Assembly: GCA_026710545.1 (NCBI GenBank)
Contig: JAPOQU010000061.1
Coordinates: 1-64,000 of the forward strand
From: Gammaproteobacteria bacterium
GTDB lineage: Bacteria > Pseudomonadota > Gammaproteobacteria > Eutrophobiales > Eutrophobiaceae
Direction of reading: 5' to 3'
Length of the DNA stretch: 64,000 bases
Shown: positions 22,305-23,179 of the stretch, one piece after another
Position numbering within the stretch: position 1 is the first letter of the stretch
Layout of the letters: every line of letters begins with the position of its first letter
Program-made: the position numbers and the translations under genes
The notes under the pieces: generated by a model
The model's database searches: none
Told to the model about the DNA's origin: nothing
The model's input: the letters and a program-made list of their open reading frames with translations, nothing else

Positions 22305-22380
22305 GGGTGCTTAGCTCAGTTGGGAGAGCGCCGCCCTTACAAGGCGGAGGTCGTGGGTTCAAGCCCCTCAGCACCCACCA
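22305..22380 (+). tRNA. tRNA-Val (UAC)
   Basis: A 76-base tRNA with encoded CCA. The acceptor GGGTGCT pairs with AGCACCC, the anticodon is TAC in CCTTACAA, and the T loop is GTTCAAGCC. It is separated by 6 bases from tRNA-Asp, and the two are surely transcribed together. Confidence 0.97.
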
Positions 22381-22386
22381 GTTTAT

Positions 22387-22463
22387 GGAGTGGTAGTTCA
22401 GTTGGTTAGAATACCGGCCTGTCACGCCGGGGGTCGCGGGTTCGAGTCCCGTCCACTCCGCCA
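22387..22463 (+). tRNA. tRNA-Asp (GUC)
   Basis: A 77-base tRNA with encoded CCA. The acceptor GGAGTGG pairs with CCACTCC, the anticodon is GTC in CTGTCAC, and the T loop is GTTCGAGTC. It is followed by a strong terminator 42 bases later. Confidence 0.97.
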
Positions 22464-22505
22464 GACATCAGATATAACGTATTGTCTTTTAAAGAAAAAT
22501 TATAG

Positions 22506-22540
22506 CAGGCGGAGTGGGCAATCACTCTGCCTGTTTTTTT
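22506..22540 (+). terminator. Rho-independent terminator of the tRNA operon
   Basis: An 11-bp stem with one G-T pair (CAGGCGGAGTG at 22506-22516, CACTCTGCCTG at 22523-22533) is followed directly by seven T. From 22541 to 22708 I see no gene, only the upstream region of the selenoprotein gene with a TATAAT at 22673-22678. Confidence 0.9.
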
Positions 22541-22708
22541 ATGGAGAGTCATCCGCCTCGCGCATGTGCCCGCTTGTTATTGGCGCCTGTGAGAAGGCCG
22601 GTGTGCAGTACCGGGTATTTCGATAGTATGGCCGTGTCATAATTCTGTGTGTTCTTCTTGTATAACAACAAGTATAATGGACCCGGCTTCTGAAACTGAC
22701 AGCAGGAT

Positions 22709-23179
22709 ATGAGCGATAAAATTGACAAGGGCGGGCAGTTTCCCGATATCGAACTGGCCATCGCCGGGGGCGGCAGGCTGCGTATTCCCGCGGATATCGA
22801 TACCCCTTATGCGTTTATCCTGTTTTATCGAGGTCATTGGTGACCTTTCTGTCGCCGCCAGTTGGGCGGCTTCGAAAAACAGCGCGAGGTCCTGGCGGAA
22901 CTTGGCGTCAGTATTGTTGCCGGCTGCGTGGATTCGGAGGAAAAGACAGCCGAAGTGGCGGCTGACTTGGGATTTCCCGTCGCCTGGGGCATGACCCGGG
23001 AGATGGGCGGGCAAGTCGGCGCCTGGTGGGATGAAGGAAGGGATTTTATCCAGCCCAGCGAATTTTTTCTCACCGGCTCGGGTGAGGTGCTCGCCTCCAC
23101 TTACAGCAGTTCCCCGGTGGGACGGATGGACCCGGAAGACGCCGTGATCCTGGCGAAATTTCTGATAAGCAAAAGGTGA
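22709..23179 (+). CDS. Thioredoxin-fold (peroxiredoxin-like) selenoprotein
   Basis: Read with TGA at 22841-22843 as selenocysteine, the ATG at 22709 gives a 156-residue AhpC/TSA-type protein. The redox site is FYRGHW-U45-PFC48-RRQL; homologues have cysteine or selenocysteine at that place. The frame continues without a break after the TGA to TGA at 23177-23179, with typical family sequence (GVSIVAGCVDSEEKTAEVAA, then SEFFLTGSGEVLAS). A GC-rich hairpin starts 10 bases after the TGA. The protein should be a thiol/selenol oxidoreductase or peroxidase. The selAB, selC and selD genes must exist elsewhere in the genome. The alternative is a nonsense mutation, but the site and hairpin argue against it. 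The gene stands alone between the tRNAs and ppiD. Confidence 0.85.
22841..22870 (+). promoter_or_regulatory. UGA codon with bacterial SECIS-like hairpin
   Basis: The in-frame TGA (22841-22843) is followed after 10 bases by GCCGCC (22854-22859), loop AGTTG (22860-22864) and GGCGGC (22865-22870). The apical loop starts 16 bases after the TGA and has a G at its second place, as bacterial SelB-binding hairpins do. Confidence 0.7.

Follow-up and report, generated by a model that had tools for sequence, protein, structure and literature searches.

A gene in the window (the whole 64,000-nucleotide stretch of gammaproteobacterial DNA analysed here) very probably encodes a selenoprotein in which the UGA at codon 45 is read as selenocysteine (Sec), a reading to which we give a probability of about 0.95 on the strength of comparative sequence analysis. 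The selenoprotein interpretation had first been put forward from the letters of the window alone, and it is supported by the presence of sel genes in the same genome, by aligned Cys homologues, by conservation of the UGA and by a SECIS-like hairpin. The predicted product is a member of the AhpC/TSA family with a UxxC motif, occurring in a group of uncultured gammaproteobacteria. The features discussed below are collected in Table 1.

Table 1. Positions in the window of the candidate selenoprotein gene and neighbouring features
Feature	Position	Strand	Basis
Putative Prx-like (AhpC/TSA) selenoprotein CDS, 156 aa	22709..23179	+	PF00578, conserved TGA, dN << dS, predicted Prx fold
Probable Sec-encoding UGA, codon 45, first position of UxxC (U45-P-F-C48)	22841..22843	+	TGA in relatives, Cys in distant homologues
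Shorter 105-aa ORF, TTG start, expected output of a standard caller	22862..23179	+	ORF listing
SECIS-like hairpin GCCGCC-AGTTG-GGCGGC	22854..22870	+	conserved pairs, synonymous-codon conservation peak
tRNA-Val(UAC) and tRNA-Asp(GUC) genes, upstream neighbours	22305..22460	+	same pair precedes the gene in L100
Terminator-like hairpin after the tRNA pair	22504..22535	+	14 pairs, T tail; consensus match alone

Reading frame and neighbourhood of the gene

The frame that opens with the ATG at 22709 and runs to 23179 is interrupted by the TGA at 22841-22843 alone, and this TGA is codon 45, at the first position of the UxxC site in FYRGHW-U-PFC; on both points the sequence confirms what the sequence-only reading had described. 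Direct reading of the sequence shows that the frame ends with a second TGA, at 23177-23179, and 22709 is the sole start codon after the nearest in-frame upstream stop at 22697. An open reading frame of about 105 residues from 22862, also reported in that earlier reading, is present, but its start is not an ATG in the wrong frame as had been claimed; it is a TTG that lies in frame with the longer gene (22862-22709 = 153).

The terminator-like hairpin that follows the upstream tRNA genes would, judging by its consensus match, separate the gene from that tRNA unit. A consensus search for a sigma-70-like promoter found none. The downstream neighbour we take, by eye, to be ppiD-like. The related loci L101 and L104 have other neighbours than the gene in the window, and there was no sign of a conserved operon.

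Conservation of the UGA and selection on both sides of it

Precisely codon 45 is also TGA in nine related genes from elsewhere than the window. Five are same-family loci (L100-L104), each with one internal TGA, and four come from marine Gammaproteobacteria/Pseudomonadales (L020, L021, L022 and L024); protein identity across these five family and four marine loci is 56-88%. A further locus from a contig scan (L019) has the same sequence as L100 and was counted once. The motif peptide used in that scan was back-translated with Cys, and Sec forms elsewhere may thus be missed. Within the family, 5 of 53 genomes hold the gene, in six copies including that of the window; an order-level search gave the same 53 genomes. 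In one family member, G050, the UGA gene is present twice, in copies that have diverged, at G050:C1:4695-5162 and G050:C6:497731-498195 (L102 and L104). When 369 genomes were drawn evenly from the class, no UGA relative besides the window itself appeared at E 1e-20, which indicates that the gene is rare. The viral contigs searched contained no relative, the plasmids searched gave nothing beyond distant redoxins of <60% identity, and PADLOC returned no match.

An alignment of the UGA site with cysteine homologues had been proposed in the sequence-only reading, and in that alignment Cys does fall at codon 45. It is encoded by TGC in a gammaproteobacterial locus (L023) and by TGC or TGT in loci from Chloroflexota, Actinomycetota and Thermomicrobiota (L025-L032). 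A 16-row tree sets the Sec forms apart on one side of a branch whose support is modest (78/64).

Nei-Gojobori estimates were obtained separately for the parts of the gene before and after the UGA. For the window and L100, dN is 0.051 upstream of the UGA and 0.068 downstream of it, against dS of 0.87 and 0.55; for the window and L101, the corresponding values are 0.066 and 0.075 for dN and 0.43 and 0.57 for dS. Within the family as a whole, dN of ~0.05-0.2 is set against dS from ~0.4 to saturation on both sides, and more distant pairs give dN of 0.13-0.5 with high or saturated dS. These values indicate that both halves evolve as a single protein-coding gene under purifying selection.

The same data bear on the proposal that the gene is a pseudogene, in which a codon that once specified Cys would have become TGA by nonsense mutation or through faulty assembly, and from which the 105-residue piece or nothing would be made. 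The in-frame TTG start of the downstream ORF and the fragmented state of the source assembly (129 contigs) are compatible with such an origin, and many of the compared genomes are themselves metagenome assemblies. Because the UGA is conserved across several independently assembled genomes, however, the TGA is not a sequencing error, and its recurrence in five other family loci and four marine genomes at the identities given above, together with purifying selection on both sides, already contradicts a pseudogene, which we consider very improbable.

Selenocysteine machinery in the same genome

The sequence-only reading had suggested looking for selA, selB, selC and selD in the genome, and all four were found. 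selA lies on contig C13 (592.7 bits), selB on C45 (over its cut-off) and selD on C87 (309.6 bits), while selC, a tRNA-Sec with UCA anticodon, adjoins selB at C45:10914-11002. The SelD protein (G000:C87:2496-3413, L017) carries Cys rather than Sec in the motif CGGCGSK, and is fused behind a part that we take to be an NADH-dehydrogenase-like FAD domain.

Among the family genomes, selA is above cut-off in 9 of 53, and all five gene-bearing genomes are among these nine; the gene occurs in none of the 44 genomes that are without a selA match above cut-off. The hypergeometric probability of this co-occurrence is 126/2869685, or ~4e-5 calculated by hand with kinship ignored. The four further genomes with the UGA form (G418, G419, G420 and G422) have selA, and none was detected in G421, the gammaproteobacterium that holds the Cys form L023. 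Four Chloroflexota/Actinomycetota genomes (G423, G425, G426 and G427) have selA yet hold the Cys form (L025, L027, L028 and L031), so that selA accompanies the Sec form and does not dictate it.

These observations also weigh on the notion that the UGA is decoded as Trp or as some other selenium-free residue, through a reassigned code or leaky readthrough. The DNA would equally fit a frame held open under TGA=W, but the homologues carry Cys, not Trp, at the site, TGA serves as the terminal stop of the gene itself and of oppB, and a tRNA-Sec (UCA) is present along with selA, selB and selD, the presence of the gene tracking that of selA. We consider decoding of this kind more improbable still than a pseudogene, and both readings were rejected on the combined grounds of the conserved TGA, two-sided selection, the Cys homologues and the sel machinery.

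A SECIS-like hairpin downstream of the UGA

The hairpin begins 10 bases after the TGA and has the loop AGTTG, in agreement with its first description. Its arms are GCCGCC (22854-22859) and GGCGGC (22865-22870), with the loop at 22860-22864. It thereby has the features of a bacterial SECIS element, namely a stem-loop that follows the UGA directly and ends in a small apical loop with a G in it, and its statistical support is modest. Across the aligned genes there is no variation in the outer four pairs, in the closing C-G pair or in the loop G. At the fifth pair, Arg50 contributes its wobble base and residue 53 (Gly, Ala, Val or Asp) its second base; of the nine distinct sequences, five form a pair there (C-G, G-C, U-A, A-U or U-G) and four do not. 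Covariation is thus limited to one pair of a six-pair structure, and 13-28 of 500 shuffles reach its measures, a modest result; RNAalifold gave no covariation term for the hairpin alignment.

Codon identity among synonymous pairs is highest in the gene over codons 49-57, at 0.72, and such a peak over the hairpin is expected if the RNA is under selection. The energy of the hairpin is unexceptional relative to synonymous recodings, the fraction being 0.057 in the window and 0.04-0.86 among the Sec relatives. A comparable hairpin follows 26 of the 2290 TGA trinucleotides in the window (1.1%), so such a hairpin is in itself no great rarity. It is absent from the gammaproteobacterial Cys homologue L023. 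An Rfam search at relaxed threshold found no SECIS match in the region, returning the two upstream tRNAs and weak unrelated matches.

In the mechanism that we propose, the ribosome would meet the UGA at codon 45, and the hairpin 10 nt downstream would recruit SelB together with Sec-tRNA(Sec) bearing the UCA anticodon, so that Sec would be inserted in place of termination.

Predicted fold and possible catalytic role

When C is put in place of U, the protein scores 50.7 bits (E 2.2e-13) on PF00578 (AhpC-TSA), whose gathering cut-off is 26, and 28.6 bits on PF08534. An AlphaFold2 model built from alignment A1 (pLDDT 91.5, pTM 0.88) confidently predicts a peroxiredoxin (Prx) fold. The nearest solved structure is the peroxiredoxin 3hjp Bcp4 (Z 22.0, rmsd 2.1, 152 residues aligned), and human Prx4 is also near (Z 21.1). 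Sequence-profile matches include peroxiredoxins and ResA.

Residues invariant in both the Sec and the Cys forms include Y40, R41, G42, H43, W44, [U/C]45, P46 and C48, as well as G138 and R139. Profile alignment places C48 on the catalytic Cys of peroxiredoxins and U45 at the position of the Prx Thr, giving UxxC, not TxxU. The same type of alignment sets G138-R139 on the GR of a peroxiredoxin; the equivalent of R139 is presumably the conserved active-site Arg of that family.

The product would be a small peroxiredoxin-fold thiol/selenol oxidoreductase. Sec45 may act as the nucleophile, a role that is less certain than the encoding of Sec itself, and C48, aligned with the peroxidatic Cys of classical peroxiredoxins, would then resolve Sec45 via a Sec-Cys selenenylsulfide. 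Probable substrates of the enzyme are peroxides or disulfides, which it would reduce with the help of thioredoxin-type reductants. A rival on function alone holds that the selenoprotein works as a thiol:disulfide oxidoreductase of thioredoxin/ResA-like type, not as a peroxidase. The UxxC in place of the Prx TxxC points in this direction, as does the presence of ResA structures among the fold and profile matches, and reviews class the UxxC members of PF00578 in this way (PMC13188914, PMC9312934). The top fold matches are nevertheless peroxiredoxins, and the invariant G138-R139 coincides with a peroxiredoxin GR; we regard the thiol:disulfide role as a substantial possibility that falls somewhat below an even chance.

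Relation to known selenoproteins

AhpC/TSA-like selenoproteins with UxxC sites were said in the sequence-only reading to be known already, and the literature bears this out (PMC1088965, PMC2398784, PMC13188914). Prx-like selenoproteins from the Sargasso Sea show distant homology to peroxiredoxins and have UXXC in place of TXXU (PMC1088965), the GOS set enlarged the UxxC group ('Prx-like 1', 225 sequences; PMC2398784), and UxxC members of PF00578/COG0450 have been named 'Prx-like thiol:disulfide oxidoreductase' (PMC13188914). The window gene shares with this group the AhpC-TSA domain, the distance from peroxiredoxins, the UxxC motif with Sec first and the hairpin after the UGA, and it was matched to the group (representative WP_010940744.1) by description. 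Sec-peroxiredoxins of the Bcp type have the fold in common with the window protein, and the top structural matches include the Bcp type. They have TxxU, however, and by the classical (Sec-)peroxiredoxin pattern of TxxC/U, with the catalytic residue last, the window protein differs in having Sec at the Thr position and C48 at the peroxidatic position.

The protein stays below the cut-off of every NCBIfam model. The best is the Prx-related SelL-related model NF040769, which at 19 bits is far under its 120-bit cut-off, and the gene may therefore be an unnamed subgroup of the Prx-like UxxC proteins. The GHW-UPFC context and the small number of gammaproteobacterial lineages in which it was seen likewise suggest a subgroup. 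We tentatively propose, at just short of even odds, a distinct unnamed FYRGHW-U-P[FY]C subfamily of a small set of gammaproteobacterial lineages; in its SECIS stem, the Arg50 wobble base and the second base of the variable residue 53 would change together, the stem thereby constraining the coding.

Other selenoproteins were sought in the genome family by family. A second AhpC/TSA gene (L124; G000:C127:10112-10504, minus strand) contains an in-frame TGA in a UxxC context, SADW-U-PYC, and a 6-pair hairpin (GCAACT/AGTTGC) downstream of it, and is probably another Prx-like selenoprotein. The two genes have UxxC, PF00578 and a hairpin after the UGA in common, but identity is 37% over 43 residues, which makes L124 a separate subfamily. 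None of the 11 PF00384 molybdopterin oxidoreductase matches in the genome contains an in-frame stop, and SelW/Rdx was sought and not found, so these common families do not explain the Sec machinery.

Implications

The gene leaves the general picture of selenocysteine use unchanged. Standard gene calling would cut the selenoprotein to 105 residues without the active site, and the finding points to selenium use in a family where selA exceeds its cut-off in just 9 of the 53 examined genomes. Sec/Cys exchange and the SECIS constraint become testable through the pairing of Sec with Cys forms and through the stem position that varies. If true, the co-variation of stem and residue would document, on a small scale and in nature, the joint evolution of an RNA structure and a protein sequence.
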